Positions 51,426 to 63,768 of a DNA stretch of 64,000 bases are shown in pieces. This stretch comes from Acidocella aquatica. Its GTDB lineage: Bacteria; Pseudomonadota; Alphaproteobacteria; Acetobacterales; Acetobacteraceae. The notes beneath the pieces are model-generated. The model was not told where the DNA came from. It ran no database searches and saw only the letters and a program-made list of their open reading frames with translations. The stretch is from NCBI RefSeq assembly GCF_030160635.1, contig NZ_BSOS01000067.1, positions 186,001 to 250,000 of the forward strand. Direction: 5' to 3'. The position numbers were made by a program, and so were the translations under genes. Each line of letters opens with the position of its first letter. Within the stretch, counting starts at the first letter, position 1.

Positions 51426-51464
51426 TAAGCCAGGCCATGGGGCGCTGCCCCCTGGCCTGGCTTA
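51426..51464 (-). terminator. Perfect palindrome overlapping the metZ stop codon
   Basis: A 12-bp perfect stem (51426-51437 with 51453-51464) continues into an inner GGGGC/GCCCC stem. The metZ TAA (51462-51464) forms the edge of the right arm. The same style (TAAGgCC edge, G-run, C-run) is seen in the arms of the ilvE/ppsR inverted duplication. No T tract follows, so it is either a weak terminator or a 3'-end stabiliser. Confidence 0.65.
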
Positions 51465-52649
51465 CGAAACCGCTCCCAGCGCCTGGGTCAGGTCGTCGAT
51501 GATATCGGCTTGGTCTTCGAGGCCGACGGAGAGGCGGATGGTGCCCTCGGTGATGCCGAGGCGGGCGCGTTCCTCGGGGCCGATGCGCATATGGGTGGTT
51601 GTGGCCGGGTGGGTTGCGAGTGATTTGGTGTCGCCGAGGTTATTGGAGATGGTGATGATCCTGAATGCGTTCATCAGCGCGAAGGCTGCCGCCTTGCCGC
51701 CTTTCAGCTCAAAGGTCACCATGGTGCCGCCGCCGCTCATCTGGCTCATGGCGAGTTCGCGTTGCGGGTGTGAGGCGAGGGTTGGGTAGAGGGCGCGCGA
51801 GATTTCCGGGCGTGATTCCAGAAAATTGGCGATGGCTTCGGCGGCGGCTGATTGCGCCTTCACGCGCAGGGCCATGGTTTCCAGCCCCTTGAGGATAACC
51901 CATGCATTGAACGGCGAGAGCGCGGGACCGGTGTTGCGGAAGAACGGCTGAAAAACCTCCTCCATCCATTTTTTCGGCCCCAGCACGGCGCCGCCGAGCA
52001 CGCGGCCTTGGCCGTCCATATGTTTGGTGGCGGAATACACCACCACATCGGCGCCAAATTCGAGCGGGCGCTGCAGCAGCGGGGTGGCGAACACGTTGTC
52101 GACCACCACGAGCGCGCCGGCGGCATGGGCCAGGCTGCAAACCGCGCGCAGGTCCACCATGTCGAGCATCGGGTTGGAGGGGGTCTCCAGCAGCACCATG
52201 GCGGCGGGGGTGGCGAGGGCCTTGCCCCAGGCGGCCAGGTCGGCGCCGTCAACAAACTCGGTGGTGATGCCGTATTGCGGCAACAAGGTGCTCACGATCC
52301 AGTGACAGGAGCCAAACAGCGCGCGCGCCGCGACCACACGGTCCCCCGCCTTCAGCCCGGCCAGCATCGCCGATGAGACCGCCGCCATGCCGGTTGCCGT
52401 GCAGCGGCACACATCCGCGCCCTCGATCGCCGCGAGCTTCTGTTCCAGCATGCTCACCGTCGGGTTGGAGAACCGCGAATATTGGTAGTGCTGGATCTGG
52501 TTGGCGAACACCGCCTCGGCCATTTCCGCGCTCTCATACACAAAGCCGGAGGTGAGAAAGAGAGCCTCGGCGTTTTCATCTAAATTCGTACGGATACGCC
52601 CGGCGTGAATCAGCTTGGTTGCCAACCGCTGGCTATCGGAATCGCTCAT
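51462..52649 (-). CDS. metZ: O-succinylhomoserine sulfhydrylase
   Basis: PLP enzyme of the Cys/Met metabolism family (395 residues) that makes homocysteine from O-succinylhomoserine and sulphide. The PLP lysine is in VVYSATKHMDGQGRVLGG (near 210). Other blocks are YQYSRFSNPTV and FVDGADLAAW. ATG 52649 has AAGGGGA upstream. A SAM-II riboswitch lies about 65 bp before it, tying the gene to methionine control. O-acetylhomoserine or cystathionine enzymes of the same fold are less likely given the riboswitch and signature. Confidence 0.9.
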   Translation of the reverse strand: MSDSDSQRLATKLIHAGRIRTNLDENAEALFLTSGFVYESAEMAEAVFANQIQHYQYSRFSNPTVSMLEQKLAAIEGADVCRCTATGMAAVSSAMLAGLKAGDRVVAARALFGSCHWIVSTLLPQYGITTEFVDGADLAAWGKALATPAAMVLLETPSNPMLDMVDLRAVCSLAHAAGALVVVDNVFATPLLQRPLEFGADVVVYSATKHMDGQGRVLGGAVLGPKKWMEEVFQPFFRNTGPALSPFNAWVILKGLETMALRVKAQSAAAEAIANFLESRPEISRALYPTLASHPQRELAMSQMSGGGTMVTFELKGGKAAAFALMNAFRIITISNNLGDTKSLATHPATTTHMRIGPEERARLGITEGTIRLSVGLEDQADIIDDLTQALGAVS

Positions 52650-52712
52650 CTCAAATCCCCTTGCTTCACAAACATGCCCGGCCACAGGGGAGGTGGCGCA
52701 TGGCAGCGCCAC

Positions 52713-52790
52713 AGCCTCTTTAGCGCGTTTATTTAATGGCATCCGCTGGGATACCGCCTCGCCGCAATCCGGCCGGACAAATCACGAGGT
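52713..52790 (-). promoter_or_regulatory. SAM-II riboswitch (metA/metZ element)
   Basis: On the minus strand the leader shows the SAM-II pattern: P1 CCUCG (52785-52789) with CGAGG (52757-52761), the conserved UGAUUUG after the 5' arm, UUGCGGC before the 3' arm, then UUAAAUAA and the terminal GCUAAAGAGGC (52714-52724) that forms the pseudoknot. High SAM should lower metZ expression. Between P1 and UUAAA there is an extra segment of about 18 bases able to form a small hairpin (52738-52758). The AAAGAGG is unusually far (about 65 bases) from the ATG. Confidence 0.88.
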
Positions 52791-52919
52791 GAGTTTCCGC
52801 CTAAACCCGCCTGCCCGCCCGGTCAATGCCGGTTAGGGGGCCGGTTGCGGGAAACGGCGGCGTCTGCTTGGATGCGGCACCCATAACAACGGTTACAATA
52901 AACCAAAAGGAAACGACAC

Positions 52920-54011
52920 ATGAAAGCAGCCGTGCTGAACCGCCTGAGCGGCGTTTTTGAGATCGAGGAAATCCAGATTGACTCGCCGCGTGGCCGTGAA
53001 GTCCTGGTTGAGGTGAAAGCCTCCGGCCTGTGCCACTCCGACCTGCACATGGCAGAAAGCGATTATGGCATGCCCCTGCCCGCCGTGGCCGGGCATGAGC
53101 TGGCAGGCATCGTGCGCGAGCTTGGGCCGGATGTGCGCGGCCTGGCGGTGGGGGACCATGTGGTCGGCTCGCTCATCCAGTTCTGCGGCCATTGCGACGC
53201 CTGCCTCGGCGGGCGCACCTACCAGTGCGAACACCCCGAGGAGACCGTGCGCGGGCCAACCGATGCCCCGCGCCTGAGCCGCGACGGCCAGCAGGTGTAC
53301 GCCACTTTCGGCACCGCCGCCTTCGCCGCCTTCTCCCTGGTGCATGAAAACCAGCTGGTGAAGGTGCCCAAGGAACTCCCCTTTCCGCAGGCCTGCATCC
53401 TCGGCTGCGGCACCGTCACCGGCGCCGGGGCCGCGATTAACACCGCCAATGTGCAGGCGGGGGACACCGTCGCCGTCTTCGGTGCCGGCGGCGTCGGCCT
53501 CAATGTCATCTCCGGCGCGAAGCTCGCGGGCGCCACGCGCATTATCGCCATCGACACGCAACCCAAAAAAGAAGAACTGGCCCGCAAATTCGGCGCCACC
53601 GACTTCGTCAACCCGGCGGATGGCGACCCGGTGGCCGCCGTGCGCGCGCTCACGGGCGGCGGGGTGCATCACGCCTTCGAGGTCATCGGCCTGAAGGCCA
53701 CCACCGAACAGGCCATTAAAATGGTGCGTCTGGGCGGCGGTGTGTATCTCATCGGGGTGCACAAACCAGGCTCGACCATCACCATCGATGTGCTGGCCGA
53801 CATGGCCTACAGCCAGGCCACCATCAAGGCCGTGTATATGGGCTCCACCAACATCCGCCACGATATCCCGATGTACGCTAACCTCTACCTCCAGGGCCGC
53901 TTCAACCTCGACGACCTGATCTCCAGGGAAATCAATATCTCCGAGATCAACGCCGCCTATAAGGAGCTGAAAACCGGCGCCATCGCGCGCAGTGTCATCA
54001 CCTCGTTCTAA
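52920..54011 (+). CDS. Zinc-dependent alcohol dehydrogenase
   Basis: 363-residue medium-chain dehydrogenase. Catalytic-zinc ligands are in SGLCHSDLHM and AGHELAG. The structural-zinc loop is CGHCDACLGGRTYQC, and the NAD site is VFGAGGVGLNVISGA followed by an Asp (IAIDTQPKK). It is closest in type to class III-like or NDMA-linked bacterial enzymes; the natural alcohol is unknown. AAAAGGAAA precedes the ATG. It is divergent from metZ. The stop runs into a composite repeat element. Confidence 0.88.
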   Translation: MKAAVLNRLSGVFEIEEIQIDSPRGREVLVEVKASGLCHSDLHMAESDYGMPLPAVAGHELAGIVRELGPDVRGLAVGDHVVGSLIQFCGHCDACLGGRTYQCEHPEETVRGPTDAPRLSRDGQQVYATFGTAAFAAFSLVHENQLVKVPKELPFPQACILGCGTVTGAGAAINTANVQAGDTVAVFGAGGVGLNVISGAKLAGATRIIAIDTQPKKEELARKFGATDFVNPADGDPVAAVRALTGGGVHHAFEVIGLKATTEQAIKMVRLGGGVYLIGVHKPGSTITIDVLADMAYSQATIKAVYMGSTNIRHDIPMYANLYLQGRFNLDDLISREINISEINAAYKELKTGAIARSVITSF

Positions 54012-54146
54012 ATCAATGAAATTGATCGTAAAACATAAGGTAGAGTGCGATCGTTTGAGGTTCGCTCAACCGAGCGAGCCGAAAGCGTGAATCGCCCTCA
54101 GAAAAACGGCCAGAGCCTGATCGCACTTAAAGCGACCAGGCTCTAG
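54012..54146. repeat. Composite palindromic element lacking the 40-bp cassette, with type A block
   Basis: Starts right after the adh stop: atcaat joined directly to gaaattgatcgtaaaac, the same flanks as at 12975 but with exactly the 40-bp palindrome missing. From 54043 follows the type A block, identical over 75 bases to 63663-63737, ending in a hairpin (agagcctgatcgc/gcgaccaggctct, loop acttaaa, 54112-54144). Probably the adh transcript end. Confidence 0.85.
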
Positions 54147-54212
54147 CCACGCCACTACGCGCCGGGCCGCGCTTGCGCAGTCCGGCGCGGCAGATTATGT
54201 GTGCGCTCATGG

Positions 54213-54286
54213 GCGGGTATGATGTAATGGTAGCCTGTTAGCTTCCCAAGCTTGATGCGCGGGTTCGATTCCCGCTACCCGCTCCA
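54213..54286 (+). tRNA. tRNA-Gly(CCC)
   Basis: 74 bases including an encoded CCA (54284-54286). The acceptor arms GCGGGTA/TACCCGC and the T arm GCGGG-TTCGATT-CCCGC pair fully. The anticodon loop TTCCCAA has anticodon CCC at 54245-54247 and reads GGG codons. The D stem (T-C) and anticodon stem (T-T) each show one mismatch, so the body is slightly loose, but all invariant bases are present. Confidence 0.93.
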
Positions 54287-54316
54287 AATTCCTTGAACAC
54301 CGGCGGCGCCTGCCAC

Positions 54317-54444
54317 AAAAAAAGACCCGCGGCCAATGGGCCAGCGGGTCAAGTCAACAGGGAGGCTTCACGTCTGGGAGACGTCGGGACCAAGGTCCCA
54401 ATCCAGCCCTCTCGGGCTGAACGATGTCCGGCTCGCACCGAACA
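54317..54444 (-). ncRNA. Candidate small RNA made of five successive hairpins
   Basis: On the minus strand, a good -10 (TATATA, 54451-54456) in a markedly A+T-rich stretch (54441-54520) is followed by stems at 54426-54443 (GCGA loop), 54404-54419 (GAGA loop), 54386-54399 (CUUG loop) and 54370-54384 (CCC loop). Then come a 19-base single-stranded stretch containing CCUCCC and an intrinsic terminator (54324-54350) with seven T. Tetraloops of the stable GNRA and CUUG kinds argue for a real RNA. I do not recognise it as tmRNA, 6S, SRP RNA or RNase P. The CCUCCC could pair with ribosome-binding sites. Confidence 0.72.
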
Positions 54445-54566
54445 ATGTTGTATATAAGCCACAATCAAAAAATATTTAAGTGTTAATTTGGTAATGTAGG
54501 GGATTTTTGTAACCACCGATTGCGAGTCAGCCCCGCGCCAGATGCATAATGGTGAATCAACGCACA

Positions 54567-54612
54567 AAAAACCGGCCATAACCGCCGCTTTTCGCGGCAG
54601 CACGGCCGGTTC
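54567..54612 (-). terminator. Terminator of the lysR gene
   Basis: Read on the minus strand, AACCGGCC (54605-54612) pairs with GGCCGGTT (54571-54578). Inside is a second stem, CCGCCG/CGGCGG-like, with loop AAAA (54584-54598), and the structure is followed by a T run. It lies 12 bp past the lysR stop. Confidence 0.8.
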
Positions 54613-54623
54613 ATATCCCCAGG

Positions 54624-55535
54624 TCAGGACTTCTGGATATTACGTTCCGAGATGCTGTTTATCAGAAAATCACGGAAAACCGAGACGCGCTTGCTGTTGC
54701 GCAGCTCCTCCGGGTACACGAAATACATCTCATTGGCCGGCTTCTTCAGCTCCGGCAGCACGTTCACCAGCCCGGTCTGGTCCTGCACCAGATAATCGGG
54801 CACCGCGCCAACACCCATGCCATTGCGGATGCAGACCAGCATCGCCTGCAGCGAGTTCACCTCCAAAACGCCCCGGCGCGGCGTGCCGTCCTTGCGGCCG
54901 ACCTCGGCCAGCCAGTTCACATCGGGCACCGGCGGCTTGCGGTCACCGAACAATATCAGCTTGTGGTGGTCGAGGTCTTCCACGCTTTGCGGCGTGCCGT
55001 TGGCTTTCAGATATTCCGTCGAAGCCCAGATCTGGCTGCGGATTTCGCCCAGATGGCGCTGCACCAGGTCGGGCTGGCGCGGCGGATGCATGCGGATGGC
55101 CACATCGGCCTCGCGCATCGCCAGATCCAGATCGGTGTCATCGAGCAGCAGCGTCACGGTCACATCAGGGTGCGCTGCAAGGAAGGTTTTCAGCCGCGGC
55201 GCCAGCCAGGTCACGCCAAAGCTGTGCGTTGTGGTCACCTTCAGCCGCCCGGCCGGTTTTTCCTTGCTTTCGGCCAGCAGCGCCTCGGTCATCGCCAGCT
55301 TGGCGAACACCTCGCGCACGGTGCGGTTCAGCGCCTCGCCCTGTTCGGTGAGGATCAATCCGCGCGCATGGCGGTGGAACAGCGGCACCGAGAGCGCCTC
55401 CTCCAGCGCCGAAATCTGGCGCGATACTGCTGATTGGCTAAGGTTCAGCGTATCGCCCGCATGGGTGAAGCTGCCCGCTTCCGCCACCGCGTGGAACACC
55501 CGCAGCTTGTCCCAATCCATTTTTTGTCCGGTCAT
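54624..55535 (-). CDS. LysR-family transcriptional regulator
   Basis: 303-residue LTTR. The N-terminal winged HTH (FHAVAEAGSFTHAGDTLNLS, QSAVSRQISALEEAL) is followed by the effector-binding domain (RLKVTTTHSFGVTWLAPRL, GMGVGAVPDYLV). ATG 55535 is two bases from the trxB stop; ATG 55520 (MDWDKLRVF) is also plausible. The gene follows trxB on the same strand, so a link to redox or thiol stress can be imagined but is not shown. Confidence 0.88.
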   Translation of the reverse strand: MTGQKMDWDKLRVFHAVAEAGSFTHAGDTLNLSQSAVSRQISALEEALSVPLFHRHARGLILTEQGEALNRTVREVFAKLAMTEALLAESKEKPAGRLKVTTTHSFGVTWLAPRLKTFLAAHPDVTVTLLLDDTDLDLAMREADVAIRMHPPRQPDLVQRHLGEIRSQIWASTEYLKANGTPQSVEDLDHHKLILFGDRKPPVPDVNWLAEVGRKDGTPRRGVLEVNSLQAMLVCIRNGMGVGAVPDYLVQDQTGLVNVLPELKKPANEMYFVYPEELRNSKRVSVFRDFLINSISERNIQKS

Positions 55536-55537
55536 TT

Positions 55538-56503
55538 TTATGCTGCCTCACTGACATGCTGGGGTAACTGCGCCAGATATTTCTCCGCCTCCAGGGCTGC
55601 CATGCAGCCGGTCCCGGCGGCGGTCACTGCCTGGCGGAAAATTTTGTCCTGTACATCGCCCGCTGCGAAAACACCCGGCACCGAGGTCTCGGTGCTGCCG
55701 GGTTTCGTGATGATGAAACCTTCGGCGTCGGTGTTCACCTGCCCGCCGAACACCGCCGTGGCGGGCGAATGGCCGATGGCGATGAACACGCCGTCCACGC
55801 TGATCTCCTGCGCAACGCCGGTCTTCACATTGCGCAGCCGCGCGCCGGTAACAACAGCCGGGCTGCCGCCGCCCAAAATCTCATCCACCGCATGGTCCCA
55901 GATCACGGTGATCTTCGGGTTGGCGAACAGCCGGTCCTGCAAAATCTTCTCGGCGCGGAAACTGTCGCGCCGGTGCACCAGGGTCACATGGCTGGCGTGG
56001 TGGGTGAGGTAGAGCGCCTCCTCCACCGCCGTGTTGCCGCCGCCGACCACGGCGACCTTTTTGCCGCGGTAGAAAAACCCGTCGCAGGTGGCGCAGGCGG
56101 AAACCCCGGCGCCCTGGTAGATCTTCTCCGAATCCAGCCCCAGCCAGCGCGCCTGCGCCCCGGTCGCGATCACCACGGCATCCGCCACGAACTCCACCCC
56201 GGCATCCGACCACGCGCGATAAGGCCGGGTGGCGAAATCCACCTTGGTGATAATGTCGTAGATGACCTCGGTGCCGACATGCACGGCCTGTTTTTCCATC
56301 TGCTCCATCAGCCAGGGACCCTGGATGGTCTCGGCAAATCCGGGATAATTCTCCACATCCGTGGTAATCGTCAGCTGCCCGCCGGGCTGCAGCCCGGCCA
56401 CCATCACCGGCGCCAGATTGGCGCGCGCCGCATAAATCGCCGCCGTGTAACCGGCCGGCCCCGCGCCGATGATTAGTATGCGGGTTTTCCTCACCTCAGC
56501 CAT
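55538..56503 (-). CDS. trxB: Thioredoxin reductase
   Basis: FAD/NADPH enzyme of 321 residues that keeps thioredoxin reduced. FAD motif IIGAGPAGYTAAIYAARA, redox-active CATC in SACATCDGFFY (near 142), NADPH motif VVGGGNTAVEEALYL and the closing GVFAAGDV. Full length. It is divergent from the Lrp-type regulator; the 178-bp gap holds A+T-rich promoter-like sequence (TTATATAAAG on the trxB side). Confidence 0.95.
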   Translation of the reverse strand: MAEVRKTRILIIGAGPAGYTAAIYAARANLAPVMVAGLQPGGQLTITTDVENYPGFAETIQGPWLMEQMEKQAVHVGTEVIYDIITKVDFATRPYRAWSDAGVEFVADAVVIATGAQARWLGLDSEKIYQGAGVSACATCDGFFYRGKKVAVVGGGNTAVEEALYLTHHASHVTLVHRRDSFRAEKILQDRLFANPKITVIWDHAVDEILGGGSPAVVTGARLRNVKTGVAQEISVDGVFIAIGHSPATAVFGGQVNTDAEGFIITKPGSTETSVPGVFAAGDVQDKIFRQAVTAAGTGCMAALEAEKYLAQLPQHVSEAA

Positions 56504-56681: not shown

Positions 56682-57173
56682 ATGCCGCGCGACCCCGACC
56701 CGATCCAGCTCGACGAAATCGACCGCAAGATCATCGCCGAACTGCAGGAGGACGGCCGCATGACCAATGTGGAGCTGGCCAGGCGCACCGGCATCTCGCC
56801 GCCGCCCTGCCTGCGCCGCGTGCGCCGGCTGGAGGAGGCGGGCTTCATCCAGGGCTACCACGCCCGCACCGATGGCCAGAAGCTCGGCTGGCAGATCGCC
56901 TTCTTCGTCATCGTCGGGCTTGAGAGCCAGAAACAGGCGGTGCTGGATGGGTTCGAGGCCCTGGTCGCCACCTGGCCCGAGGTGCGCGAATGCCACATGA
57001 TCCGCGGCGGCGGCGATTTTCTGCTCAAGCTGGTGGCGCGCGACGCCGCGCACGAAAACCAGCTCACCGCCCGGCTCACCGGGGCCGCGCATGTCGCCCG
57101 GGTGCAGACGCTGCAAACAATCCGCACCAGCCGCGACCTCGCGGGCGTACCGATGGACCGTTCAAATGGTTGA
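56682..57173 (+). CDS. Lrp/AsnC-family transcriptional regulator
   Basis: 163-residue feast/famine regulator. The N-terminal HTH (LDEIDRKIIAELQEDGRMTN, VELARRTGISPPPCLRRVRR) is followed by an AsnC ligand-binding domain (EVRECHMIRGGGDFLLKLVA). ATG 56682 fits the family start. The 3' end overlaps the CtaG-like gene by 8 bp, so the two are co-transcribed. The amino-acid effector is unknown. Confidence 0.9.
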   Translation: MPRDPDPIQLDEIDRKIIAELQEDGRMTNVELARRTGISPPPCLRRVRRLEEAGFIQGYHARTDGQKLGWQIAFFVIVGLESQKQAVLDGFEALVATWPEVRECHMIRGGGDFLLKLVARDAAHENQLTARLTGAAHVARVQTLQTIRTSRDLAGVPMDRSNG

Positions 57174-63663: not shown

Positions 63664-63765
63664 AGTGCGATCGTTTGAGGTTCGCTCAACCGAGCGAGCC
63701 GAAAGCGTGAATCGCCCTCAGAAAAACGGCCAGAGCCGGATCGCAGCTAAAGCGATCAGGCTCTG
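63661..63765. repeat. Type A palindromic element, near-complete copy
   Basis: The plsC TAG is its first triplet. 63663-63737 is identical to 54043-54117 over 75 bases. The terminal hairpin agagccggatcgc/gcgatcaggctct (63732-63764, loop agctaaa) follows. Directly after it a second copy begins. Confidence 0.88.
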
Positions 63766-63768
63766 GCG

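Follow-up and report, generated by a model that had tools for sequence, protein, structure and literature searches.

A predicted small RNA gene with a conserved core beside an LsrB-type regulator gene in Acidocella aquatica and other Alphaproteobacteria

Background

What is encoded in the intergenic DNA that separates a lysR gene from a tRNA-Gly gene in Acidocella aquatica? In the 64,000-nucleotide stretch analysed here (the window), the minus strand of this interval carries a row of hairpins that an earlier note, made from the letters alone, had read as an undescribed small RNA (sRNA). Judged by all of the sequence evidence, the region is a conserved, structured sRNA gene. Beyond what the note had proposed, the neighbouring lysR proved to be of the LsrB/VtlR type and to belong to a conserved trxB-lysR-sRNA locus, the sRNA proved to be widespread across the class, and its 3' half turned out to be distantly related to SorX and suhB/MmgR. 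We consider it probable that this is a free-standing, LsrB-linked sRNA gene whose product would act in trans as an Hfq-assisted anti-Shine-Dalgarno repressor, adjusted by LsrB and similar in its action to AbcR and SorX.

Anatomy of the sRNA gene

The putative gene occupies positions 54317-54446 of the minus strand and starts approximately 178 bp past the lysR stop codon, which is itself followed by a terminator-like hairpin. Beyond its terminator lies a tRNA-Gly(CCC) gene on the opposite strand. The genes closest to the putative sRNA gene are lysR-trxB, tRNA-Gly and a gene for a zinc-type dehydrogenase. The 5' end is placed near 54446 on the basis of the -10 element, and the promoter-to-terminator distance gives an RNA of about 130 nt, close to the 128 nt expected in the earlier note. 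A -10 element in an A+T-rich stretch had also been proposed; base-by-base inspection gives TTATAT at 54457-54452, preceded within the A+T-rich stretch by a sequence-based -35 element CTTAAA (54475-54480, minus strand) at a spacing of 17 bases. These elements are conserved in relatives: TATATAC is invariant in 28 aligned sequences and the pattern CTTA-N16/17-TATAT is found in 27 of 28 related promoters. A generic sigma-70 scan of 54000-54700 returned no promoter, and neither CTTAAA nor TTATAT meets the rule of that scan.

The four stems described from the letters agree with the sequence base by base. In the direction of the predicted transcript (minus strand throughout) they are stem 1 with a GCGA loop (54425-54444), stem 2 with a GAGA loop (54401-54422), stem 3 with a CUUG loop (54385-54400) and hairpin 4, ACGUCU-CCC-AGACGU (54370-54384). 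Hairpin 4 contains CUCCCA, the hexamer of AbcR motif M1, of which only CCC lies in the loop and the remainder is paired. The 19-base linker that follows (54369-54351), GAAGCCUCCCUGUUGACUU, carries the anti-Shine-Dalgarno sequence CCUCCC and is predicted to be mostly unpaired, as had been suggested. It leads into an intrinsic terminator (54317-54350) composed of a stem at 54350-54324 and the expected run of seven T at 54323-54317 (A on the plus strand; U in the RNA). The minimum free energy of the predicted RNA is -65.1 kcal/mol, compared with a mean of -49.2 for shuffled sequences (z = -3.5), and one of 200 shuffles folded equally well.

Other products of this interval were considered and rejected. 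The 84-codon open reading frame that runs through the stems was thought accidental, and it is indeed not preserved, as relatives have gained or lost 1 or 2 bases within it. Release of the RNA from a lysR 3' UTR is contradicted by the terminator-like hairpin past the lysR stop codon and by the conserved promoter. A long antisense partner was sought in the genome with a 191-base query (core at bases 117-145); the 11 other matches listed were 14-25 bases each, and among the matches listed at E ≤ 10 no other covered the core. The genome has one full copy of the sRNA.

Two other elements were identified nearby. At 54085-54147 is a palindrome, AGAGCCTG...CAGGCTCT (plus strand), that is a dispersed repeat: at least 40 further near-full-length copies with 91-97% identity are present in the genome (54 matches listed; 40 of 94 candidates scored), one of them in the window near 63705-63767. 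A SAM_alpha riboswitch (52699-52796, minus strand; 37.9 bits, cut-off 36) lies at the start of an open reading frame (51462-52742) for a PLP enzyme of Cys/Met metabolism. Because the listed start of this reading frame overlaps the riboswitch, its true start is probably further in.

Conservation and covariation

Within the genus, strong matches to the sRNA were found in 34 of 37 genomes, that of A. aquatica included; the three genomes that had none (G025, G026 and G027) are 81, 90 and 73% complete, respectively. The named collection contains 30 stretches with an exact copy of the 30 bases that span hairpin 4, the linker and the start of the terminator; they come from Acidocella isolates and MAGs, from MAGs named only Proteobacteria, Rhodospirillales, Acetobacteraceae or similar, and from one record labelled Rhodovastum atsumiense. 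While hairpin 4 and the linker are constant in the genus, stems 1-3 vary in sequence and number; stem 2 is missing in some relatives, and there are shorter versions of the RNA with fewer stems.

The earlier note had proposed an alignment of related genomes as a test for compensatory changes, and such changes were found. In 18 full-length Acidocella-type relatives, 16 of 45 pairs were changed on both sides, compared with 5.2 in shuffled alignments and 0-10 when the structure was slid along the alignment, a control in which the structure has some advantage from having been taken from the window sequence itself. Five of the 45 pairs belong to a long-range helix of the window fold. Both-side changes affected 4 of 8 pairs in stem 1, 7 of 9 in stem 2 (which thus supplies 7 of the 16) and 3 of 6 in stem 3, and 94.1% of the alignment cells tested could pair, as against 91.0% in the shuffles. 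This set (A3) comprises 18 of the 30 genus RNAs; the 12 outside it are L015, which has all stems and a wrongly cut end, and RNAs with differing stems. In hairpin 4, five of six pairs are invariant in the 18 relatives, and covariation there has no statistical support since the pairs hardly vary. A few loci elsewhere have an altered hairpin 4 that still forms a stem (for example, L228 and L234).

A BLAST search with the segment from hairpin 4 to the terminator matched 138 of 385 class genomes at E ≤ 0.001. The 29-base core, ACGUCUCCCAGACGUGAAGCCUCCCUGUU, is letter-perfect in about half of the class loci found by this likeness (52 of the 109 fetched); at least 25 bases are kept in 96 of 109, 21 or 22 bases in six, and seven have no core of 21 bases or more. 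Upstream of the core the stems are variable, and downstream the terminator varies in sequence and still pairs. From 117 distinct core-plus-terminator sequences, two alignments of 83 (A1) and 34 (A2) members were picked by eye for terminator spacing, with L174 excluded for want of a T run. In the larger alignment, hairpin 4 positions 2-15 and the linker part GAAGCCUCCCUGU are conserved at 90% or more, a figure that is partly the product of selection, as members of both alignments were found by core likeness and had passed the 25/29 threshold. In the 34 class sequences, the terminator stem covaries.

A count free of this selection was obtained by starting from LysR. Of 29 loci sampled in this way, 18 have at least 25 core bases within 1.5 kb (19 of 30 with the A. 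aquatica locus itself) and 11 have all 29, while the other 11 have no core (none above 17 bases) and none falls at 21-24; the sample covers the 30 best class matches to the LysR protein and hence near ones. A covariance model (R1) built from 34 sequences from outside the genus recognised the sRNA as its sole match in the window, at 63.4 bits, and gave a single match in the genome at E ≤ 0.01. At the same threshold it matched 71 of 150 family genomes and had no match in the other 79. About 5 kb past its LysR gene, the Tistrella mobilis record pTM3 carries a copy that keeps 27 of the 29 core bases. A search of a phage collection gave one chance-like match.

The trxB-lysR-sRNA locus

The gene order in the window is Lrp/AsnC, trxB, lysR, sRNA. 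The Lrp/AsnC-type regulator gene (56682-57173, plus strand) was identified by Pfam AsnC_trans_reg and an HTH_AsnC-type domain over cut-off, trxB (55538-56503, minus strand) by TIGR01292 (410 bits, cut-off 343) as encoding thioredoxin reductase, and the regulator gene (54624-55535, minus strand) by Pfam LysR_substrate and HTH_1. The best solved structure for this LysR is 9hh1 (301 bits; next best 116), which, on the basis of PMC11975290, we take to be LsrB of A. tumefaciens. By tblastn, the window protein shares 46.5% identity with the LysR that is linked to trxB in S. meliloti, and it has matches at E ≤ 1e-90 in 173 of 372 class genomes. The presence of an LsrB-type protein outside the Rhizobiales is at odds with a published claim that it is unique to that order.

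Linkage was counted in the 97 class loci that keep 25 or more of the 29 core bases and differ from one another in upstream sequence; six loci with 21-22 core bases and seven without a core were left out. In 65 of the 97, a lysR on the same strand lies within 1 kb of the sRNA, at a median of 216 bp from the core, and trxB is present in the fetched flank of 55 of these 65. In the remaining 32, the sRNA does not adjoin lysR. In the genus the linkage holds in 26 of 30 loci, and the other four have only about 50-350 bases of contig upstream.

The same arrangement is known from the Rhizobiales. In S. meliloti the order is Lrp/AsnC, trxB, LysR, intergenic region and ArsR (on a 3.7-Mb record labelled plasmid), and the Lrp/AsnC neighbour is common to S. 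meliloti and R. leguminosarum. The S. meliloti intergenic region contains two abcR copies, identified from the motifs CUCCUCCC and UUCCCCUC given in the literature (PMC8844928); AbcR1/2 had been placed after Lrp-trxB-lysR in that species (PMC3712013).

The window LysR lacks cysteines at both positions equivalent to C144 and C273 of A. tumefaciens LsrB. Its single cysteine, at residue 235, recurs in 22 of the 91 sequences of an alignment in which every other column has a cysteine in fewer than 10. It is likely that this LysR senses a signal of another type.

VtlR boxes upstream of the core

In 20 of the 97 class loci, the exact VtlR box, GCAT-N3-TG-N3-T (PMC7486931), was found on the RNA strand at a distance of 60-330 bases ahead of the core, as compared with a mean of 2.4 and a maximum of 9 in 200 shuffles. 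The range of 110-190 bases, which was chosen after the positions had been seen, holds the box in 18 of 97 (shuffles: mean 0.79, maximum 5). With both strands counted, the box is present in 22 of 97 upstream regions versus 4 of 96 downstream regions (Fisher p = 0.0002). All three rhizobial abcR loci inspected also have the box upstream, and it was not found at the Paracoccus locus. These counts make it likely, on sequence grounds, that the LsrB-type regulator serves the sRNA in part of the class.

Acidocella differs in this respect. No exact box was found in 27 upstream regions of the genus (control: one of 27), and the best sites in the window, 249-304 bases before the core, have two mismatches. 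Because the exact box is absent there, we infer LsrB control in Acidocella from linkage only. Published work on the corresponding circuit in S. meliloti is contradictory: LsrB is described as not driving AbcR1 in PMC7486931, while a later paper reports that it does (PMC8844928).

By eye, five loci (L048, L057, L060, L131 and L134) have palindromes of another kind, TGTTGC-N3-GCAACA/GCAATAT (TGTTGC-N3-GCAAYA), no more than about 110 bases ahead of the core. These resemble the TGC-rich operators bound by PhaR/AniA, a PHB regulator.

Relationship to known sRNAs

The sRNA had been thought to belong to no named family, and in agreement with this, Rfam 15 gave nothing for it at any curated cut-off; an Rfam sRNA cut-off was reached by none of 60 core-bearing loci (20 from the genus and 40 from the class). 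Below the cut-offs, the best matches are suhB/MmgR (28.7 bits), SorX (21.4 bits) and SorY (20.7 bits), with alignments that span hairpin 4, CCUCCCU, ACUU and the terminator. Among the papers listed in literature text searches with the core letters, none is an sRNA paper by title (one is, by title, on Rhizobium grahamii replicons), and searches for sRNA literature naming Acetobacteraceae returned only papers that are, by title, unrelated. The description "undescribed" therefore holds as far as Rfam 15 and these searches go; the kind of RNA, however, was already known.

Forty stretches near lsrB were fetched from genomes that had no adjacent core copy in the core search. In 17 of them, CCTCCCTG or TCTTCCCT is followed by a T run; two of the 17 (L250 and L253) represent the known core further away. 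Changed versions of the core include AGGUCUCCUGGACCU in L228 and CGUCUUUUUAGACG in L234, and others are present in L229, L247, L241 and L219. When 20 of the stretches were scanned at the Rfam cut-offs, L243 passed for SorX, and a second scan at E ≤ 0.1, which covered 20 stretches (four of them scanned before), gave SorX matches below cut-off in L256 and L227 (28.1 and 24.0 bits). Four genomes (G204, G378, G301 and G404) have two or three tandem SorX-model matches directly after lsrB, an arrangement like that of rhizobial abcR1/2.

Could the hairpins be a degenerate repeat or double terminator with no RNA function? They are intergenic and G+C-rich, and a terminator-like hairpin does follow the lysR stop codon; as the core and promoter are conserved while the stems covary, and the genome has a single full copy, this explanation is extremely improbable. 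That the sRNA is a diverged copy of alpha-r8 (MmgR/suhB, RF00519; SisA-D in Caulobacter) with a carbon-storage role has more to recommend it, since suhB is the best Rfam match, aligning over the hairpin, CUCCCU, GACUU and terminator, and the overall architecture (hairpin, CCUCCCU, ACUU, terminator) is shared. Its score, however, falls short of the curated cut-off of 41, and the genome has three suhB copies of its own at or over that value (55.0, 50.5 and 41.0 bits) with the core CGUUUCCUCCCUAAACUU, as well as a fourth, suhB-like copy at 37.6 bits. Because these true copies have a different core, the sRNA is not the alpha-r8 RNA of this genome. In addition, the 10-mer UUUCCUCCCU that marks alpha-r8 RNAs (PMC12559287) is absent from the sRNA, which reads AAGCCUCCCU, and the sRNA neighbours lysR-trxB in place of the N-formylglutamate amidohydrolase gene, a linkage stated for most single alpha-r8 copies and not for all paralogs. 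An alpha-r8 identity is accordingly quite improbable.

SorX (RF02784, Rhodobacter) is a closer candidate, as it shares the hairpin, CCUCCCUGUUG, ACUU and terminator with the sRNA, and SorX-type RNAs occupy the same place: in L243 a match over the SorX cut-off (51.0 bits) immediately follows lysR, and in Paracoccus denitrificans about 185 bp separate the LysR gene from a stretch consisting of CCUCCCUGUUGGACUU and a terminator, which is SorX-like by eye (18.9 bits with R1). At E ≤ 0.001 the SorX model matches 119 of 372 class genomes; the places listed coincide in many cases with those found by the core BLAST (for example, in G201, G132, G299, G376, G093 and G177). Against a single family stand the low score of the sRNA compared with the SorX cut-off of 46.6, the lack of any SorX match at E ≤ 0.001 in the A. 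aquatica genome and the fact that only 6 of 372 class genomes reach the cut-off. Moreover, published SorX arises by cleavage of the ompR-1 3' UTR (PMC6238624), while the conserved promoter of the sRNA would argue against RNase E release of this type. We therefore regard orthology with the SorX of the Rhodobacterales as unlikely, though with real points in its favour. Identity with AbcR (alpha-r15) in sequence as well as in place is improbable. AbcR1 and AbcR2 of the Rhizobiales share with the sRNA the position after trxB and lsrB/vtlR, the VtlR box in part of the class, a hairpin with CUCCCA, which is identical to AbcR M1 (PMC5461406), a second CU-rich stretch after this hairpin and a terminator. 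The sRNA, in contrast, is present in one copy, has several variable 5' stems and lacks the M2 motif GUUCCC/UUCCCCUC, its linker being of different sequence, and R1 did not match abcR in S. meliloti, R. leguminosarum or Shinella at E ≤ 10 (L293, L297 and L299).

On the membership tests made, the sRNA is not to be filed as MmgR, SorX or AbcR. It belongs to an LsrB-linked family that has no Rfam entry, with a 3' half akin to SorX and alpha-r8 and an AbcR-like place, and it is probably linked to the SorX/AbcR RNAs as their counterpart at the same genomic position.

One of the true suhB/MmgR copies in the A. aquatica genome lies about 60 bp from, and facing, a two-piece tmRNA gene (L280, 2000-2495).

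Proposed function

By analogy, the sRNA very probably works like MmgR, SorX and AbcR, and the parallel with known alphaproteobacterial sRNAs carrying anti-Shine-Dalgarno motifs that the earlier note had drawn is apt. We propose that transcription would run from the gene's own promoter to the intrinsic terminator, yielding an RNA in which the variable 5' stems probably serve for protection or spacing and the constant part would consist of the CUCCCA hairpin, single-stranded GAAGCCUCCCUGUU and the U-tailed terminator. The RNA would most likely repress several mRNAs with the assistance of Hfq, for which the genome has an hfq gene, through pairing of CCUCCC with their GGGAGG-type Shine-Dalgarno sites, and the adjacent LsrB-type regulator may adjust transcription of the sRNA, as reported for AbcR1 in the Rhizobiales. 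The anti-Shine-Dalgarno motifs of AbcR1 repress translation of transporter mRNAs (PMC8844928), the target of SorX is the mRNA of a spermidine transporter subunit (PMC8625941) and SisA is cited as an analogous case of anti-Shine-Dalgarno action (PMC12559287).

Target searches in the genome were uninformative. An exact scan for ACAGGGAGG-N4-12-ATG gave four sites (two for a control pattern), one of them before a long open reading frame. A search among LivK- and PotD-type genes, the start codons of which are uncertain, yielded no clear target, and duplex energies did not single out the LivK-like genes.

Conclusions

The covariance model can now be used to annotate this RNA. As an LsrB-type gene is followed by a core-bearing sRNA in many other alphaproteobacterial families, the origin of the LsrB-sRNA circuit becomes testable, and harmless hosts such as Acidocella can be used to study it. 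We tentatively suggest, at somewhat less than even confidence, that an LsrB-type regulator and the anti-Shine-Dalgarno sRNA next to it formed one ancestral module, older than the divergence of many alphaproteobacterial lineages, of which AbcR in rhizobia and SorX in Rhodobacterales would be the best-known, strongly diverged descendants and the sRNA described here the older form. If this is true, then the combination of a rigid core with drifting stems would point to a fixed partner, either a protein or one conserved RNA, in addition to many mRNAs.
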